37,452 nt of DNA from the NCBI GenBank assembly GCA_020072565.1, contig JAIQGI010000053.1, positions 1-37,452 of the forward strand. The letters are read 5' to 3'. The notes beneath the pieces are model-generated. The model searched no databases, was not told the DNA's origin, and was given only the letters and a program-made list of their open reading frames with translations. Each line of letters begins with the position of its first letter. The stretch's first letter is position 1. Shown piece after piece: positions 1,586-29,889 of the stretch. Made by a program: the position numbers and the translations under genes. The DNA comes from Terriglobia bacterium. GTDB taxonomy: Bacteria; Acidobacteriota; UBA6911.

Positions 1586-1807
1586 AAAAGGAAACGAAAC
1601 AATAAAGGGACGACTGTGACTGTTGATGGCATGGGACGAGACGACCACACCATTCCCCTGGTGGATGACCGGCAGGAGCACACGGCCGAAGTAAGAATCC
1701 ACATCGCACCAAGCCAAAGAACCGCCACATTGGAGCACCAACGACGCTGGGTTAGACTCCGCTCCGGTAATCAAAAAAGGCATAGGCCACAGCGCTGTTG
1801 TCCCTTA
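1586..1807. other. intergenic region with no recognisable gene
   Basis: Short overlapping frames on both strands, none resembling a known family and none with a convincing ribosome binding site. Together with the deacetylase relic this leaves about 640 bp of apparently decayed DNA before the next promoter. Confidence 0.4.
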
Positions 1808-1817
1808 TTGACGGGGA

Positions 1818-1882
1818 TGAGCAATGTTGACCACCTGTGTGAGCCATACTGAACTGACACATGGATTGCCGACGGGTATAAA
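1818..1882 (+). promoter_or_regulatory. shared stress-type promoter module, copy A
   Basis: Blocks TGAGCAAT, TTGACCA, GTGTGAGC, TAC and GAACTGACAC follow each other with 1, 3, 2 and 1 variable bases between them (1818-1860). The last block contains a -35 element CTGACA (1854-1859), followed after 17 bp by -10 TATAAA (1877-1882). An extra TTGAC lies at 1808-1812. The same arrangement is found at 2974, 8736 and, on the minus strand, 8684. It predicts a transcript start near 1889 and a leader of about 60 nt before the small membrane protein gene. Confidence 0.8.
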
Positions 1883-1947: not shown

Positions 1948-2100
1948 ATGATCTGGACGATTTTTGTGGCTCTGCTCGCCTTGTGGTTATTGGGACTTGT
2001 CACTGCTTACACTTTAGGTGGATTCATCCACATCCTGTTGGTGGTGGCCATCGTCATGGTCTTGATTCGGTTGATTCAAGGCCGAAGAGGGATCGCCTGA
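1948..2100 (+). CDS. small membrane protein, lmo0937 family (DUF5670-like)
   Basis: 50 aa, starting MIWTIFVALLALWLLGLV and continuing TAYTLGGFIHILLVVAIVMV to a basic end QGRRGIA. This is almost the standard sequence of the lmo0937-type membrane proteins: two hydrophobic segments joined at a GG, positive residues at the C-terminus. The ATG has GGAGG 7 nt upstream. It sits behind promoter copy A. The family is widespread and often found beside stress genes, but its molecular role is unknown; placement in the inner membrane is from hydrophobicity. The next gene begins 36 nt downstream and may be cotranscribed. Confidence 0.85.
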   Translation: MIWTIFVALLALWLLGLVTAYTLGGFIHILLVVAIVMVLIRLIQGRRGIA

Positions 2101-2973: not shown

Positions 2974-3038
2974 TGAGCAATTTTGACCAGAGGTGTGAGC
3001 TGTACGGAACTGACACGAGAAGCAGCCAAAGGTATAAA
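2974..3038 (+). promoter_or_regulatory. shared stress-type promoter module, copy B
   Basis: The same five blocks as copy A with identical spacing (2974-3016); -35 CTGACA at 3010-3015, 17 bp spacer, -10 TATAAA at 3033-3038. Transcription would start near 3045, only about 15 nt before the ATG at 3060, so the leader is little more than the ribosome binding site AAGGAG (3047-3052). This also rules out the upstream in-frame ATGs at 2886 and 3039 as starts. Confidence 0.82.
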
Positions 3039-3059: not shown

Positions 3060-4976
3060 ATGAAAGAGATCCGCAAGAATGTTCCGGCACTGCTTGTGCT
3101 TCTGCTGATATTGGGGGCTGCCCAAGGGGCTTTGGCGCAGGCTGATCCACCAGAACGGGTCGCACGGCTCAACTTCATTGTAGGCGCCGTGTCCTATCTC
3201 CCGTCTGGGGGAAATGAAAATGACTGGGTTACCGTAGACATGAACCGACCGCTGACTACGGGAGATCGGCTTTGGGCGGATGCCAACAGCCGCGGTGAGC
3301 TACACATAGGCTCGACGGCTGTCCGCATGAACAGCAACACGGGATTTTCATTCTTGAATCTGGATGACACCTCGGTTCAGATCGGGCTTTCCGAAGGTTC
3401 CATCATTCTGCGGCTGCGCCATCTGGATCCGGGCGATACTTACGAGGTGGACACTCCGAATCTGGCGTTCGCCATCAAGCGTGCGGGAGATTACCTCATT
3501 GAGGCGAATCCGGACAACAACACCAGCATCATCACTGTGCGTCAAGGTGAAGGCGAAGTCATCGGGGGCGGCCGTTCGTGGCAAGTCATTTCCGATCAGC
3601 AGGCAATATTTGCCGGTACGGATACGCTCAACTATGACTTGAGGGATGCCGGATCTCAGCCGCTCAGTGAATTTGACCGATGGGCTCGGAGCCGCGATCA
3701 GAGCGAAGATCGCGCCGCAGCCCCGCGGTACGTTTCCACAGAGATGACCGGCTACGAGGATCTGGATGCCTACGGCTCATGGACCCAGGTGCCGGAGTAC
3801 GGCTGGTCCTGGAGGCCTTCGCAGGTCCCGGCCGGTTGGGCACCCTACAGGTTCGGCCATTGGGTCTGGATCGCACCGTGGGGTTGGACCTGGGTGGAAG
3901 ACGAACCCTGGGGCTTCGCGCCGTTTCATTACGGACGCTGGGCCAATTATCGCAGCAACTGGATCTGGGTGCCCGGTCCGATGGTAAGGCGGCCAGTGTA
4001 TGCTCCGGCACTCGTCGCCTGGGTGGGTGGAGGCGGGTTTGGTCTCTCGATCACACTCGGCGGGAGAGCAGGTATCGGCTGGTTCCCGCTTGGCCCACGC
4101 GAAGTTTTTGTGCCCGGTTATCGGGTCAGCGAGAGATACGTCACCAACATCAACGTGACCAACACGGTCGTGAACCGCACGAATGTCGTCAATATCTTCA
4201 ACAATCGGAATGCGGCTCCCATTACTTATATGAATCGGGCTGCGCCCAACGGAGTGACCGTGGTTCCCCAGGATACGTTCGTGAATGCACGTCCGGTCGC
4301 ACGCAATGTCATGAATGTGCCCGAGCGCGAACTGGCTTCAGCGCCGGTTACTCGAGGAATCCAGATAGCCCCGGAGCGGACGAGCGTATATGGCGCCGGC
4401 AACCACAACGCACCTCATCCTCAGGAACGGGCGATGAGTCGCCCGGTGGTGATAAAAAAGACTCCGCCCCCTGCGCCGAATCACTTCGAGCAACCGCAAA
4501 TCACGCGCCCGGACAGGCCTGCGAATCGAACGATACCTCAGCAGACACCGCCTCAGCAGGCGCAACCTCCACAAAAGCCGCCTCAACAGGTGCAGCCTCC
4601 GCAAAGGCCGCCTCAACAGGTGCAGCCTCCGCAAAAGCCGCCTCAACAGGTGCAGCCTCCGCAAAGGCCGCCTCAACAGGTGCAGCCTCCGCAACAGGTG
4701 CAGCCTCCGCAAAGGCCGCCTCAACAGGTGCAGCCTCCACAGGTAATTAAAAGGGGGCCCGAGACAGCGCCGACGCGACCCAATCAGAGTGCTGTGAGAC
4801 CCCAACAGCAGTCTCAGCCGACTCAACCTCTGGTGAGACCTGCGCCGCCGGTCCGTCCGCCGACGCCAAGGGAGCTTGCCGACACGCAGGCTAAACAGAA
4901 AGCCTGGGAAGATGCGCACCAGCGCAATACCAAGGATCAGAATCAGAAGGATAAAAAGGCCCCGATTAAGAAATAA
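3060..4976 (+). CDS. FecR-domain / DUF6600 secreted protein with Pro-Gln repeat tail
   Basis: 638 aa from ATG 3060 (AAGGAG, 7 nt spacing). Order of parts: signal peptide ending near ALAQ (residue 26); a FecR-like beta domain (about 36-170, with GDRLWADANSRGELHI and YEVDTPNLAFAI); a Trp-rich DUF6600 block (about 225-330, repeated W-W patterns such as GHWVWIAPWGWTWVE and WANYRSNWIWVPGP); an Asn/Val-rich stretch (NINVTNTVV, NIFNN); a Pro/Gln repeat tail (about 495-565); and a Lys-rich end. The FecR domain in this context is usually an extracytoplasmic carbohydrate- or surface-associated module rather than iron sensing. Probably periplasmic or surface located; partner unknown. Expression is predicted from promoter copy B. 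Confidence 0.8.
   Translation: MKEIRKNVPALLVLLLILGAAQGALAQADPPERVARLNFIVGAVSYLPSGGNENDWVTVDMNRPLTTGDRLWADANSRGELHIGSTAVRMNSNTGFSFLNLDDTSVQIGLSEGSIILRLRHLDPGDTYEVDTPNLAFAIKRAGDYLIEANPDNNTSIITVRQGEGEVIGGGRSWQVISDQQAIFAGTDTLNYDLRDAGSQPLSEFDRWARSRDQSEDRAAAPRYVSTEMTGYEDLDAYGSWTQVPEYGWSWRPSQVPAGWAPYRFGHWVWIAPWGWTWVEDEPWGFAPFHYGRWANYRSNWIWVPGPMVRRPVYAPALVAWVGGGGFGLSITLGGRAGIGWFPLGPREVFVPGYRVSERYVTNINVTNTVVNRTNVVNIFNNRNAAPITYMNRAAPNGVTVVPQDTFVNARPVARNVMNVPERELASAPVTRGIQIAPERTSVYGAGNHNAPHPQERAMSRPVVIKKTPPPAPNHFEQPQITRPDRPANRTIPQQTPPQQAQPPQKPPQQVQPPQRPPQQVQPPQKPPQQVQPPQRPPQQVQPPQQVQPPQRPPQQVQPPQVIKRGPETAPTRPNQSAVRPQQQSQPTQPLVRPAPPVRPPTPRELADTQAKQKAWEDAHQRNTKDQNQKDKKAPIKK
4561..4740 (+). repeat. 30-bp tandem repeats coding the Pro-Gln tail
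   Basis: Near-identical 30-bp units (CCTCAACAGGTGCAGCCTCC plus ten more bases) encode PPQQVQPPQ followed by R or K and P, about six times, with one 15-bp partial unit near 4690. Units alternate AAAGG and AAAAG at one point. A typical substrate for slipped-strand length variation; the reading frame is kept because units are multiples of three. Confidence 0.85.
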
Positions 4977-5293: not shown

Positions 5294-5953
5294 ATGGCAA
5301 GTAGGAAAAGCCGGCTTATCGATTGGGAAACATTGCTCGCTGGAATTTCTCGCAGGAAAAGCCCTGTAGAATACAGCGCCAACTGCGAGATCTTTCAGCA
5401 AGGACAACCCGCAGATTCACTGCTGTACCTTCGACGAGGTAAGGTCAAGCTTACGGTCATTTCCAAACATGGCAAGGAAGCTGTCGTTGCCCTACTGAGT
5501 GCCGGCGAGTTTTTCGGCGAGGGATGCCTCGCAGGTCAACAGTTGCGAATGGCAACGGCGACTGCGATGACGGCTTGCACTCTCGACAATCTCGAGAAGC
5601 TTCTGGTGATGCGCTTGCTCCACGAGCGGCACGAGATCTCAGAACTGTTCGTCGCACATCTGCTTTCCCGCAACATCCGGTATGAAGGGGATCTTGTGAA
5701 CCAGTTTTTCAATTCAAGCGAGAACCGTCTGGCGCGGATTCTCTTGCTGCTTTCTCATTTCGGCAAGGAAAGCAGAGCCGAACCCGTGCTTCCGGAAGTC
5801 AGTCAGGATAACCTGGCCCAAATGATCGGTACAACCCGGTCGCGAGTCAGTCATTTCATGGACAAGTTCCGGAAGCTAGGCTTTATCAATTACAGCGATA
5901 ACGACGGGTTGACGGTTCATAGTGGCCTCCTCAGCGTGGTCCTGCACGATTAG
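5294..5953 (+). CDS. Crp/Fnr-family transcriptional regulator
   Basis: 219 aa from ATG 5294 (CGGAG, 7 nt upstream; ATG 5255 behind GGGGGAGG is an alternative). N-terminal cyclic-nucleotide-binding-like beta barrel (about 20-140: IFQQGQPADSLLYLRRGKVK, then GEFFGEGCLAGQ), a dimerisation helix, and a C-terminal winged helix (about 165-215, VSQDNLAQMIGTTRSRVSHF). The recognition helix TTRSRVSHF differs from both CRP (RETVGR) and FNR (VETISR). The barrel lacks the full cAMP phosphate-binding signature, so the ligand is unknown. The ending LLSVVLHD is typical of a group common in Acidobacteriota. It lies near promoter copy B and is one candidate for the factor acting on that module, without direct evidence. 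Confidence 0.85.
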   Translation: MASRKSRLIDWETLLAGISRRKSPVEYSANCEIFQQGQPADSLLYLRRGKVKLTVISKHGKEAVVALLSAGEFFGEGCLAGQQLRMATATAMTACTLDNLEKLLVMRLLHERHEISELFVAHLLSRNIRYEGDLVNQFFNSSENRLARILLLLSHFGKESRAEPVLPEVSQDNLAQMIGTTRSRVSHFMDKFRKLGFINYSDNDGLTVHSGLLSVVLHD

Positions 5954-5979
5954 TGGCTGTAACCGTGGCAATGGAGACC

Positions 5980-6117
5980 TTTAACGCGGATTATTCATGA
6001 ATATGCGACCAAAATGCAGTTTTGGACGCGGAAAAACGCTAACAGACGCTGACCGTTCGGTTTTGGTCGGCGTGCATGAGCTTTTGCCGCGCCGCAGGAC
6101 GGCAGGAGCTCCTGCCT
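5980..6117 (+). repeat. dispersed intergenic repeat, copy 1
   Basis: This stretch between two convergent genes matches, in inverted orientation, the segment 29764-29889. Shared parts include TTCATGAATATGCGA, TTTTGGACGCGG, the run CAGACGCTGACCGTTCGG followed by TTTTGGTCGGCG, and the perfect palindrome GGCAGGAGCTCCTGCC (6101-6116). Copy 1 carries about 20 extra bases before the palindrome. There is no open frame in it; it behaves like a small mobile or REP-type element. Confidence 0.7.
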
Positions 6118-8118: not shown

Positions 8119-8466
8119 TCATAAGGCTTTTTCGGCTATTTTGGCCTTGGTGTCCACGCCACTTGCTTTGATGGCAACTTTCACAGCATCTTCCATCGGA
8201 TCTTTGAAGGGCACCTCAATTCGGAGCAGGCCGTGCTCGTAAGTCGCTTCGGCTTTGACAGGTTTCACCGGCCAACCCAACGCCAGTGCTGAAACATACT
8301 CGACGTCCCGTGCCGGCGCTGTCAGGTGGATGCTGTCTTCCAGGATCTTCACATCGATAGTATCTGTTGGCGCCCCCGGGATGGCGAACTCTACTACCAG
8401 CTTGTGTCTCTCGGCGTCCGCATACGCTACTGTATTGGGCGCAACCTTGATTCGATATTCCGACAT
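8119..8466 (-). CDS. small heat-shock protein, Hsp20/alpha-crystallin family
   Basis: 115 aa consisting almost entirely of an alpha-crystallin-like beta sandwich: KLVVEFAIPGAPTDTIDVKI, LEDSIHLTAPA, then YEHGLLRIEVPFKDP, whose GLLRIEVP matches the usual GvL.I..P signature near the end of the fold. Short N- and C-terminal arms mean that oligomerisation may be reduced compared with typical 140-150 aa members. Such proteins hold unfolding clients in the cytoplasm without using ATP. Ribosome binding site GGAGGG 7 nt before ATG. It is divergent from the Thivi_2564-type gene; both are preceded by copies of the same promoter module, and a hairpin follows the stop. Confidence 0.85.
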   Translation of the reverse strand: MSEYRIKVAPNTVAYADAERHKLVVEFAIPGAPTDTIDVKILEDSIHLTAPARDVEYVSALALGWPVKPVKAEATYEHGLLRIEVPFKDPMEDAVKVAIKASGVDTKAKIAEKAL

Positions 8467-8618: not shown

Positions 8619-8684
8619 TTTATACCATCGTGGCAATCCGGTTGTCAGTTCACTACTGATCACAAGCATGATCAAAACAGCTCA
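8619..8684 (-). promoter_or_regulatory. shared stress-type promoter module, copy D (hsp20 promoter)
   Basis: Read on the minus strand from 8684: TGAGCTGT, TTGATCA, TTGTGATC, TAG, GAACTGACAA with exactly the same spacing and total length (43 bp, 8684-8642) as copies A-C, of whose 36 common bases it keeps 29. -35 CTGACA is at 8648-8643, spacer 18 bp, -10 TATAAA at 8624-8619. The leader to the hsp20 ATG would be about 145 nt. The outermost bases of the inner inverted repeat changed together: G and C in A-C, T and A here. Confidence 0.75.
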
Positions 8685-8735
8685 CGGACCTTCTTACTGC
8701 ATTTCCATAGTGCAGTTGTCTTGCCTTGACCGGGG

Positions 8736-8801
8736 TGAGCAATCTTGACCAGACGTGTGAGCAGTACTGAACTGACACGCGACTCATCTCCAAGGTATAA
8801 G
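8736..8801 (+). promoter_or_regulatory. shared stress-type promoter module, copy C
   Basis: The five conserved blocks of copies A and B recur at 8736-8778; -35 CTGACA 8772-8777, spacer 18 bp, -10 TATAAG 8796-8801. As in copy A, an extra TTGAC lies upstream (8726-8730). It starts only 52 bp from the divergent copy D. Leader to the next gene about 95 nt. Confidence 0.82.
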
Positions 8802-8904: not shown

Positions 8905-9096
8905 ATACCTTTGATTCAACTTGTGGTGATCCTGATCGTGATTGGGGTTCTTCTTTGGCTGGTTAACAACTACATACCCATGCAGGGGTCCATTAAAAGG
9001 ATCCTGAATGGGGTCGTGGTTATCGCCGTGGTTTTGTGGCTTGTGAACGTTTTTGGCCTTCTCAGCTATTTCTCCAATTTCCGTGTGGGAAAGTAG
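8905..9096 (+). CDS. small membrane protein, Thivi_2564 family
   Basis: 63 aa if begun at 8905, 61 aa if begun at TTG 8911. Two hydrophobic helices (LIQLVVILIVIGVLLWLV and ILNGVVVIAVVLWLVNVF) flank a short loop with NNYIPMQGSIKR, the hallmark of this family of inner-membrane proteins of unknown function. Relatives usually start MPLIQL. Here the codon at the Met position is ATA, and GGAGG (8894-8898) is 6 nt before it, whereas it is 12 nt before the TTG. Translation may thus start at an unusual AUA codon. Driven by promoter copy C. Function unknown; its co-regulation with hsp20 and the lmo0937-type gene points to stress or envelope maintenance. Confidence 0.75.
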   Translation: MPLIQLVVILIVIGVLLWLVNNYIPMQGSIKRILNGVVVIAVVLWLVNVFGLLSYFSNFRVGK

Positions 9097-9372
9097 CTGC
9101 CTCGGTTCAGGGTGGAGTGCTAAATGCCACCCACGGCGAAGATCGCCGCGACTTCGAATTGAATGCTCGCGAGCATAAGTCGAATTCGATCTGCGTGTCG
9201 CCTTGGCCGGGGGGGATGCGGAATCAGTAGAGCCACGATCACTTTGATCGTCCTTGCTGATTTCCAGGATGGAAGCTGTTCACAATTGCACCCAACGCTG
9301 TTCACTATTGCTCGCAGCGGCTGTCAGAGCAGGCGTAAGCTTTACTGCGGCAGCGACGGGAGCAGCCCCTGC

Positions 9373-11502
9373 ATGGAAAAACGAGATAAGAGCCTAGAGA
9401 GCTTCTGGGACAAGCCGCTGGCTGACCTGCTTCAGCTGCTGCAGGCAACACCGGCCGGGCTGACTGCCGCGGAAACGAGACGGCGGTTGCGTCTTTATGG
9501 CCCAAACAGCATGGCGCAGGAGTCGCGCTTCGCAGGCTTGCTCACCTTCCTTCGCTACTTTGCCAATCCACTCGTCGTCATCCTTCTCGTGGCCAGCGGC
9601 ATATCCCTGGGACTTGGGGACCAGGTTGGCGGGCTGATCATCATCGCCATAGTCCTCCTCAGCGTTCTTCTGAACTTTTTCATGGAATTCCAGGCTAGAC
9701 ACGCGGTAGAGGAGATTCAGAAGCAGGTTGCTACAACGGCCGCCGTGATGCGCGATGGGCTGGAACAGGAGCTGCCGATAGCGGAATTAGTCCCGGGGGA
9801 TATCATCCGGCTCAATGCGGGTGACCTGGTGCCGGCGGACACACGACTGCTGGAAGTAAAGGATTTGCAGGTGCGCGAGTCGGCGCTGACCGGGGAGTCG
9901 CTGCCCGTCGAGAAGTCCGCGCTCGATTTGTCAGAGGGGAAGCACGGTGTTGCCGACGCGACCAACAGTGTATTCCTGGGCACTGCGGTCCAGACAGGGT
10001 TTGGCACCGCGGTTATTGTCCGCACAGGCCGAAATACCGCACTCGGGGTGATCGCGCAGCGTTTGGCTACCCGGCCGCCGGAGACCGAGTTCGGCCGCGG
10101 CATACGCCACTTTGGGCTGATGATTACCCGGGTAATCATGCTGCTCGTGCTTTTCGTTCTTCTGGTAAACCTCTATTTCCACCGCCCGCTGCTGGAGTCC
10201 TTCCTCTTCGCAGTTGCCCTGGCGGTAGGGATGACCCCTGAGATGATGCCCATGATCATCACGGTCACCCTAGCTCAGGGTGCGAGGCGGATGACCAGGA
10301 AGAAGGTCCTGGTCAAGCAACTTGCGGCCATCGAGGATTTCGGCAGCGTGACGATCCTCTGCAGCGATAAGACCGGCACCCTGACCGAAGGGGAGATCGT
10401 GCTTGACCGGCACGTGGATATCCTGGGGAAGGCGGATGACAACGTTCTGCGGCTCATCTACCTGAACAGCTACTTCGAAGCGGGCATCAAGAGCCCCCTG
10501 GATGATGCCGTCTTGAAGCACGAGCATCCTAAAATTGTGGAGTATGTCAAGGTGGACGAGATCCCCTTCGACTTCAACCGCAAGCGTCTTTCGGTAGTGG
10601 TGCAACATGGTGACGAGCACCTCCTCATTACCAAGGGCGAGGCAGAGGGTATCTTTGGCATCTGCCAAAGCGTGAGCATCGATGGGTCACCCCAGCCGTT
10701 CACCGAAAGCCGGCGCGCTGCGGCGGAGGAGACTTAGAGGAAGTTGAGCGCCGACGGTTACCGGACCCTTGGGGTAGCGGTGCTGAAAGTGGACAAGCGG
10801 GACGTCTACACCCCGGCGGATGAGCGGGATATGACGCTGGCCGGGTTTGCGGCATTCCTGGACCCGCCCAAGGAAGGGATTCATGCCGTTCTGGAGGCAC
10901 TGAAACAGAATGGCATCTCCGTGGTCATCATGACCGGCGACAACCAATATGTGACCCAAAAGATCGCCCGCGACGTTGGGCTGGCATCGGACCGCATTCT
11001 CGCCGGGAACCAGGTCGATACCATGGATAATGCCGCCCTGGCCTACCAGGCCGAGAACGGCGCCATCTTCGCCCGCGTGTCTCCGGAGGAGAAGAACCGG
11101 GTCATCATCGCTCTCAAGGCACGCGGGCACGTCGTCGCGTACGGGGGTGACGGCATCAATGACGCACCTTCGCTGCACACCGCGGATGTAGGCATTTCAG
11201 TCATGAATGGCGTGGACGTGGCCAAGGATGCTGCGAAGATTATCCTGCTGGAAAAGGATCTGGCGGTTTTGAACGACGGGGTAATCGAGGGGCGGCGCTG
11301 CTTCGCCAACATCATGAAGTACATCATCATGGGCACCAGCTCGAATTTCGGTAATATGTTCAGCATGACCGCGGCCTCGCTCTTCCTGCCCTTCCTGCCT
11401 ATGTTGCCGACGCAGATCCTGCTGAACAACTTTCTGTGTGACCTTTCACCATCATTTGCCGGAGGCCACCGTAGCCGGGACTGCAACACTGACGAGAGGT
11501 GA
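9373..11502 (+). pseudogene. mgtA: magnesium-translocating P-type ATPase, interrupted and truncated
   Basis: The frame from ATG 9373 encodes a P3B-type ATPase: N-terminal cytoplasmic segment (SFWDKPLADLL), transmembrane helices, TGES actuator loop near residue 172, AVGMTPEMMPMI in the ion-binding helix, DKTGTLT with the phosphorylated Asp near 332, and TGDN and GDGINDAPSL of the hinge. Two lesions: an in-frame TAG at 10735-10737 (codon 455, in the nucleotide-binding domain, sequence continues in the same frame as RKLSADGYRTLGVAVLK), and loss of the C-terminus after LLNNFLCDLS, where about 150-190 residues with the last transmembrane helices should follow. The frame after that is unrelated and ends at 11502. 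TTG 10744 could restart translation. The active-site motifs remain perfect, so decay seems recent. Confidence 0.8.
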
Positions 11503-29763: not shown

Positions 29764-29889
29764 TTGGACGCGGATGAACGGCAGGAGCTCCTGCCCGCCG
29801 ACCAAAACCGAACGGTCAGCGTCTGTCAGCGTTCCCCCGCGTCCAAAACGGCCTTTTGATCGCATATTCATGAATGATCTGCGTTAGAG
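29764..29889 (-). repeat. dispersed intergenic repeat, copy 2 (inverted relative to copy 1)
   Basis: Reverse complement matches 5980-6117: TTCATGAATATGCGAT, GTTTTGGACGCGG, ACGCTGACAGACGCTGACCG followed by TTCGGTTTTGGTCGGCG, and the palindrome GGCAGGAGCTCCTGCC (29780-29795). It lies between two divergent genes; the two copies are inverted and about 23.7 kb apart. Confidence 0.7.

Follow-up and report, generated by a model that had tools for sequence, protein, structure and literature searches.

A 43-bp tandem-dyad promoter module associated with a CRP/FNR-family clade and a putative clustered stress regulon in Acidobacteriota

The 43-bp module found upstream of hsp20 and of other operons in a Terriglobia bacterium is quite probably bound in tandem by dimers of a CRP/FNR-family activator, which would work from the class II position and serve a clustered general stress regulon. 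In the mechanism we propose, each of two 16-bp dyads (half-site TG-NN-CA) would take one dimer: on the proximal dyad, centered at about −41.5 and abutting or overlapping the −35 element, the activator would touch RNA polymerase beside the sigma subunit, and a second dimer would sit on the distal dyad, two helical turns (22 bp) farther upstream at about −63.5. The core promoter would be of the ordinary sigma-70 type (CTGACA, 17–18 bp, TATAAR), and the predicted activator is one or more of four members of a CRP/FNR clade encoded on the module-bearing contigs, one of them at positions 5294–5953 of the window (i.e., the whole 37,452-nt stretch of DNA analyzed here). Such a regulon would comprise hsp20, groESL, genes for small membrane and envelope proteins, a STAS protein gene and a P-type ATPase gene and, in several relatives, the activator's own gene. 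Binding, activation and the class II contact are all inferred from sequence.

The genome, from a Terriglobia bacterium (Acidobacteriota), comprises 7.46 Mb in 135 contigs, of which the window corresponds to C53; homologous loci bear Acidobacteriota titles. As the first-pass annotation had described, two modules point outward from the region between hsp20 and the Thivi_2564-type gene, one on the minus strand (8684–8642, toward hsp20) and one on the plus strand (8736–8778; Table 1). Its description of the hsp20 copy is also accurate: this copy is exactly 43 bp long, retains 29 of the 36 bases common to window copies 1–3 (which are identical at 36 of 43 positions) and has the same −35 and −10 elements, with CTGACA and TATAAA/TATAAG conserved. 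The spacer between these elements is 18 bp in both divergent promoters and 17 bp in the other two window copies, and CTGACA and TATAAR separated by 17–18 bp point to promoters of the sigma-70 type. With a matrix built solely from sites in other genomes, the hsp20 copy scored 49.2 bits, compared with a best score of 3.2 among 20 shuffled windows.

Table 1. Module copies, promoter elements and associated genes in the window (dyads and promoter elements are predicted)
Feature	Coordinates	Strand	Details
Module copy before lmo0937-type gene	1818–1882	+	Dyads 1818–1833 and 1840–1855; −10 at 1877–1882
lmo0937 family membrane protein (DUF5670)	1948–2100	+	50 aa
Module copy before DUF6600 protein gene	2974–3038	+	Dyads 2974–2989 and 2996–3011; −10 at 3033–3038
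DUF6600 protein	3060–4976	+	638 aa; proline/glutamine-rich repeats
CRP/FNR-family regulator, proposed activator	5294–5953	+	cNMP_binding + HTH_Crp_2
hsp20-type small heat-shock protein	8119–8466	−	115 aa; Pfam HSP20 just below cut-off; NCBIfam Hsp20 E 6.5e-10
hsp20 promoter, −10	8619–8624	−	TATAAA
hsp20 promoter, −35-like	8643–8648	−	CTGACA
hsp20 promoter, proximal dyad	8647–8662	−	TGATCAGTAGTGAACT; center about −42.5; overlaps −35
hsp20 promoter, distal dyad	8669–8684	−	TGAGCTGTTTTGATCA; center about −64.5 (18-bp spacer)
Thivi_2564-type gene promoter, distal dyad	8736–8751	+	TGAGCAATCTTGACCA
Thivi_2564-type gene promoter, proximal dyad	8758–8773	+	TGAGCAGTACTGAACT
Thivi_2564-type gene promoter, −35-like	8772–8777	+	CTGACA
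Thivi_2564-type gene promoter, −10	8796–8801	+	TATAAG
Thivi_2564 family membrane protein	8911–9096	+	61 aa; NCBIfam NF041949, E 2.9e-19
Fifth, diverged tandem pair	9277–9341	+	TGTTCACAATTGCACC (9277–9292) and TGTTCACTATTGCTCG (9299–9314); 22-bp spacing
P-type cation ATPase, N-terminal part	9373–10737	+	Frame breaks near 10740

When 58 distinct sites of this genome and its relatives were compared, the module resolved into two 16-bp dyads, TGAGCAATnTTGACCA and TGAGCAgTACTGAACT, which occupy positions 1–16 and 23–38 and lie 22 bp apart. Both are of the type TGNNCA-N4-TGNNCA, with the variable half-site bases NN being mostly AG, GT or TT, and the conservation peaks are placed as mirror images (G2/C15, C5/G12, G24/C37 and C27/G34) and are invariant or nearly so across these sites. 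Counted from a start predicted from the conserved TATAA box (−10), the dyads are centered at about −63.5 and −41.5, with the proximal center moving to −42.5 where the spacer is 18 bp; in the strong promoters of this genome, the −10 lies at offset 37 or 38 from the start of the site. At class II promoters, CRP/FNR activators classically sit at −41.5, and the predicted −10 completes the class II geometry of a dyad at −41.5 combined with a sigma-70 −10. The earlier proposal that the repeat touches the −35 element was right in outline, as the proximal dyad shares two bases with the −35 of hsp20. Covariation between half-sites within the dyads was weak (3/14: 0.40 vs 0.29 expected, p 0.04; 4/13: p 0.08) and, for that reason, is not used here as proof.

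The first-pass annotation had also read a change from G…C to T…A at positions 20 and 43 of the hsp20 copy as the covariation that a dimer on an inverted repeat would leave. The letters are correct (G20..C43 vs T20..A43), but they do not form a covarying pair, since the C22 copy at 68232, upstream of a glutamine-rich gene, has T20..C43. Across the 58 sites, mutual information between positions 20 and 43 was 0.175 vs 0.12 in shuffles (p ~0.1) and complementarity was 0.54 vs 0.48 expected, with a second count in agreement; substitution at these two bases is thus random rather than paired, which was the outcome named in advance as refuting. The paired change among the four window copies is a coincidence. 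The inner repeat GTGT (20–23)..ACAC (40–43) was accordingly dropped as a candidate binding site, as its arms are not kept and covariation is absent. What survives in outline is the idea of a dimeric protein, for which the conserved dyads at 1–16 and 23–38, rather than the 20/43 repeat, would be the evidence.

Counting the hsp20 module as a fourth copy proved to be an underestimate, as the genome contains 10 strong copies, each located before an operon, and 3 weak ones. A pattern derived from the four window copies retrieved six further matches, all on contig C22, and a 67-position profile added the three weak copies, again on C22, so that all 13 lie on two contigs (C53 and C22); a reversed-pattern control gave no module match in the genome. 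The module also occurs in eight other genomes of the class, and a class-level search added no module-bearing genomes beyond these first relatives. Among them, G031, which belongs to another family, carries the module upstream of hsp20, as anticipated (L064:1907–1957, followed by an lmo0937-type gene and then hsp20). Some copies arose by segment duplication, given that the promoters at window 1704–1858 and C22:84336 are duplicated with their flanks (91.7% identity over ~156 bp). Downstream of the C22:84336 copy, the closest called gene is 422 nt away and encodes GTP cyclohydrolase; owing to the duplicated promoter and this distance, it is not confidently counted as a target. Gene starts are those called by an in-house gene finder of simple design. 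On a contig binned as Methylococcaceae (L173, 53–166), two overlapping divergent modules accompany a regulator fragment, reflecting either inter-phylum transfer or a binning error.

Genes following the modules of this genome include groES-groEL, hsp20 and those for STAS, Ysc84, glutamine-rich secreted, lmo0937-type, Thivi_2564-type and DUF6600 proteins, and putative targets in the relatives include YtxH, CsbD, YflT, Usp, SPFH, superoxide dismutase and peptidoglycan-binding proteins. The natural reading of these targets is a general stress regulon; the suggestion of a stress regulon that includes hsp20 is thus supported in outline, by the kinds of putative targets rather than by covariation. 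The target kinds overlap those of the sigma-B regulon of Bacillus and Listeria: B. subtilis csbD, yflT and ytxH appear among the SigB genes (PMC7824861), and lmo0937 falls in a sigma-B study of Listeria (PMC7690807). However, the sigma-B regulon uses a sigma-B promoter, whereas here a sigma-70-type promoter is combined with tandem CRP/FNR-type sites. There are several HSP20 genes per genome, those listed being encoded outside the module contigs, and the divergently transcribed hsp20 of the window is therefore the only one linked to the module. Close relatives of it lie downstream of the module in G031 (L064) and beside a diverged clade member in G015 (L090). At position 1149 of L090, a near-perfect palindrome, TGTTCATAAGTGAACA, is located between that clade member and an hsp20 88% identical to that of the window.

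Of all proteins that module-bearing contigs share, a CRP/FNR-family regulator was the commonest, with 12 genes across 7 genomes. Among 60 genomes, including this one, 8 had both the module (E ≤ 1e-5) and a clade member (>365 bits), 1 had the module only, none had a clade member only and 51 had neither (hypergeometric estimate p ~3e-9, uncorrected for shared ancestry). The single exception, G004, has one module, and no clade member above 365 bits was found in it. In a tree of 85 homologues, all 21 rows counted as module-bearing fell into one 32-row clade (SH-aLRT 98), and the module label changed 4 times compared with 18.9 times in shuffles, the label itself depending on how far the contig of each homologue extends. 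In G031, G013, L108 and L109, the module is located 20–230 nt before clade-member genes, which suggests autoregulation.

The regulator encoded in the window belongs firmly to the CRP/FNR family by sequence. Specifically, it matches an N-terminal cyclic-nucleotide-binding fold (PF00027, E 4e-18) and a C-terminal Crp-type helix-turn-helix (PF13545, E 2.4e-9), both above cut-off, and the closest solved structures, matched over nearly the full length, come from the CRP/FNR family (best 3h3u, E ~1e-24). NtcA and the Mycobacterium CRP/FNR regulators are among the closest known systems. The closest named family models were NtcA (E 1.7e-15, for a C22 copy) and CRP (E 3.3e-15, for the window copy), with both well short of the curated thresholds (for NtcA, 57 bits against 245). 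The module dyad is also unlike the NtcA box, GTA-N8-TAC. Nine Crp helix-turn-helix matches were found genome-wide, four of which are clade members, all on C53 and C22, and these four paralogues share one altered recognition helix, TTRSRVSHF.

The clade resembles E. coli CRP in its cNMP-binding domain, its Crp helix-turn-helix and a 16-bp dyad centered at −41.5, but differs in its site (TGNNCA-N4-TGNNCA vs TGTGA-N6-TCACA for CRP) and shows ~20% identity. The base contacts of E. coli CRP, Arg180, Glu181 and Arg185, are largely conserved over the family and not strictly defining (PMC12531629). In the homologues, Arg180 is kept in 85 of 85, Glu181 is replaced by Ser in 80 of 85 and Arg185 mostly by His, Phe or Tyr; replacement of the latter two would mark a clade of changed specificity rather than a non-member of the family. 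These helix changes would fit a site in which, of the CRP half-site TGTGA, the outer G is retained but the inner GA is lost. Regarding ligands, the cAMP contacts Glu72 (84/85) and Arg82 (82/85) are kept, the position of Thr127 is taken by Tyr, Ile or Val, and that of Ser83 by Met or a shifted Ser in near homologues; with the contact set (Glu72, Arg82, Ser83 and Thr127) not kept in full, we rejected cAMP-CRP proper. FNR proper was likewise rejected, as the near homologues have only two invariant cysteines, C78 and C95, in place of an N-terminal [4Fe-4S] cysteine cluster. These residues (Cys in 75/85 and 52/85 homologues, respectively) are possibly a lead for redox sensing.

More distant homologues (~50–63% identical) occur in Rokubacteria, Nitrospirota, Rhizobiales and other Acidobacteriota. 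The 43-bp module is almost wholly absent from their loci, other Acidobacteriota included; in those of Rokubacteria, Nitrospirota and Rhizobiales none was found, and only single dyads are present. Specifically, TGNNCA-N4-TGNNCA occurred beside the homologues 10 times vs 0.2 expected in Rokubacteria, 15 vs 0.8 in Nitrospirota, 8 vs 2.8 in Rhizobiales and 30 vs 6.6 in other Acidobacteriota, often directly after the regulator gene. Some of these dyads are perfect palindromes (e.g., TGAGCAATATTGCTCA and TGGTCAATTTTGACCA), and several read TGAGCAATnTTGAACAGACA, a close match to the proximal dyad of the module together with its −35. In the other lineages, a TANNNT −10 was found at offset 37 for 16 of 64 dyads, compared with 6 at the next most frequent offset and a mean of ~1, which places the dyad center at −41.5. 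We infer that the single −41.5 site may be ancestral, with the distal dyad added in the Acidobacteriota clade. Near a Xanthobacteraceae homologue (L172, 9818–9880), three successive dyads are present with 23–24 bp spacing.

A symmetrised half-site matrix run over 127 kb recovered the strong copies and one new pair, at 9277–9314, which scored 28.4, with none above 15 in ten shuffles of the same 127 kb. This fifth tandem pair of the window precedes the P-type ATPase gene and has a −10-like TAAGCT (9336–9341) at the standard offset, and its half-sites are in the opposite order (TT|AG), an arrangement that a dimer would tolerate and a direct-repeat binder would not. The ATPase gene itself (9373–11502) encodes 454 aa and then 252 aa in a different frame, indicating either a frameshift or an assembly error near 10740.

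Half-site order bears on what type of protein reads the module. TGNNCA is its own reverse complement, so a direct repeat accounts for the majority of the conserved bases about as well as a dyad does, and the module could be a direct-repeat box (TGANC at steps of 10, 12 and 10 bp) for an OmpR/PhoB-type response regulator, with TGA-C present at positions 1, 11, 23 and 33 and A13 equal to A3 in the direct, not the inverted, reading. We consider this very unlikely: the reversed half-sites of the ATPase pair and the perfect palindromes near homologous crp genes speak against it, and none of the 16 OmpR-type regulators in the genome is encoded on the two module contigs. On the contigs fetched, the only DNA-binding response regulator shared near modules is of the LuxR type; this candidate (C22:51088, with a large kinase) was rejected, as it was found in only 2 of 8 genomes. 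An extended promoter read by a special sigma factor, with no separate activator, would account for the near-invariant −10 and −35 and their fixed spacing, but the conserved sequence, in two 16-bp units, extends ~71 bp upstream from the predicted start, beyond sigma contacts, the −10 and −35 are of the sigma-70 type, and no sigma gene was found to recur alongside the module in the shared gene clusters, which makes this reading highly improbable.

Granting a CRP-clade protein, it could instead repress: the −35 and −10 lie close to consensus and might suffice for transcription without help; a core promoter on by default might then be blocked, until a signal arrives, by dimers at −41.5 and −63.5, the proximal dyad overlapping the −35 by two bases. 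Repressor sites need no fixed phase, however, whereas the −41.5 spacing recurs exactly in different phyla, as class II activation expects; repression is therefore unlikely, though the most credible of the alternatives. The 91.7% identity between window 1818 and C22:84336 would fit copies that are a spread MITE-like repeat with no regulatory role, but this seems barely credible: the other copies have only 43 bp and the −10 in common, and most copies lie upstream of genes in the correct orientation and at promoter distance in many genomes. Class II activation by tandem CRP/FNR-family dimers is the reading we favor.

A broader reading, which we regard as evenly balanced between right and wrong, is that a CRP/FNR clade of Acidobacteriota, Rokubacteria, Nitrospirota and Rhizobiales uses a remodeled recognition helix to read an undescribed code, TGNNCAAT-ATTGNNCA (NN = AG, GT or TT). 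Some Acidobacteriota would then rely on this clade as the master activator of a general stress regulon, clustered and patchy in its distribution, that fills the role of sigma-B or RpoS elsewhere, with an added dimer site at −63.5 and possibly cysteine sensing (C78 and C95). A literature search returned no paper matching any of six site sequences searched literally or on Crp/Fnr in Acidobacteria and, to our knowledge, how these dominant, hard-to-grow soil bacteria switch general stress genes is poorly known. The analysis provides a candidate activator, its predicted site, a promoter geometry and a target list for the stress genes of Acidobacteriota, and the departure of the clade helix from residues largely conserved in the CRP/FNR family offers a concrete case for a change in DNA specificity. 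Given that the motif also lies beside homologues in other phyla, the prediction is testable in culturable bacteria.

The window contains two further repeats: an 84-bp tandem duplication without mismatches, close to the end of the contig (37155–37322), and a 111-bp inverted repeat (5979–6089 and 29779–29889), the arms of which are 87% complementary and 23.7 kb apart.
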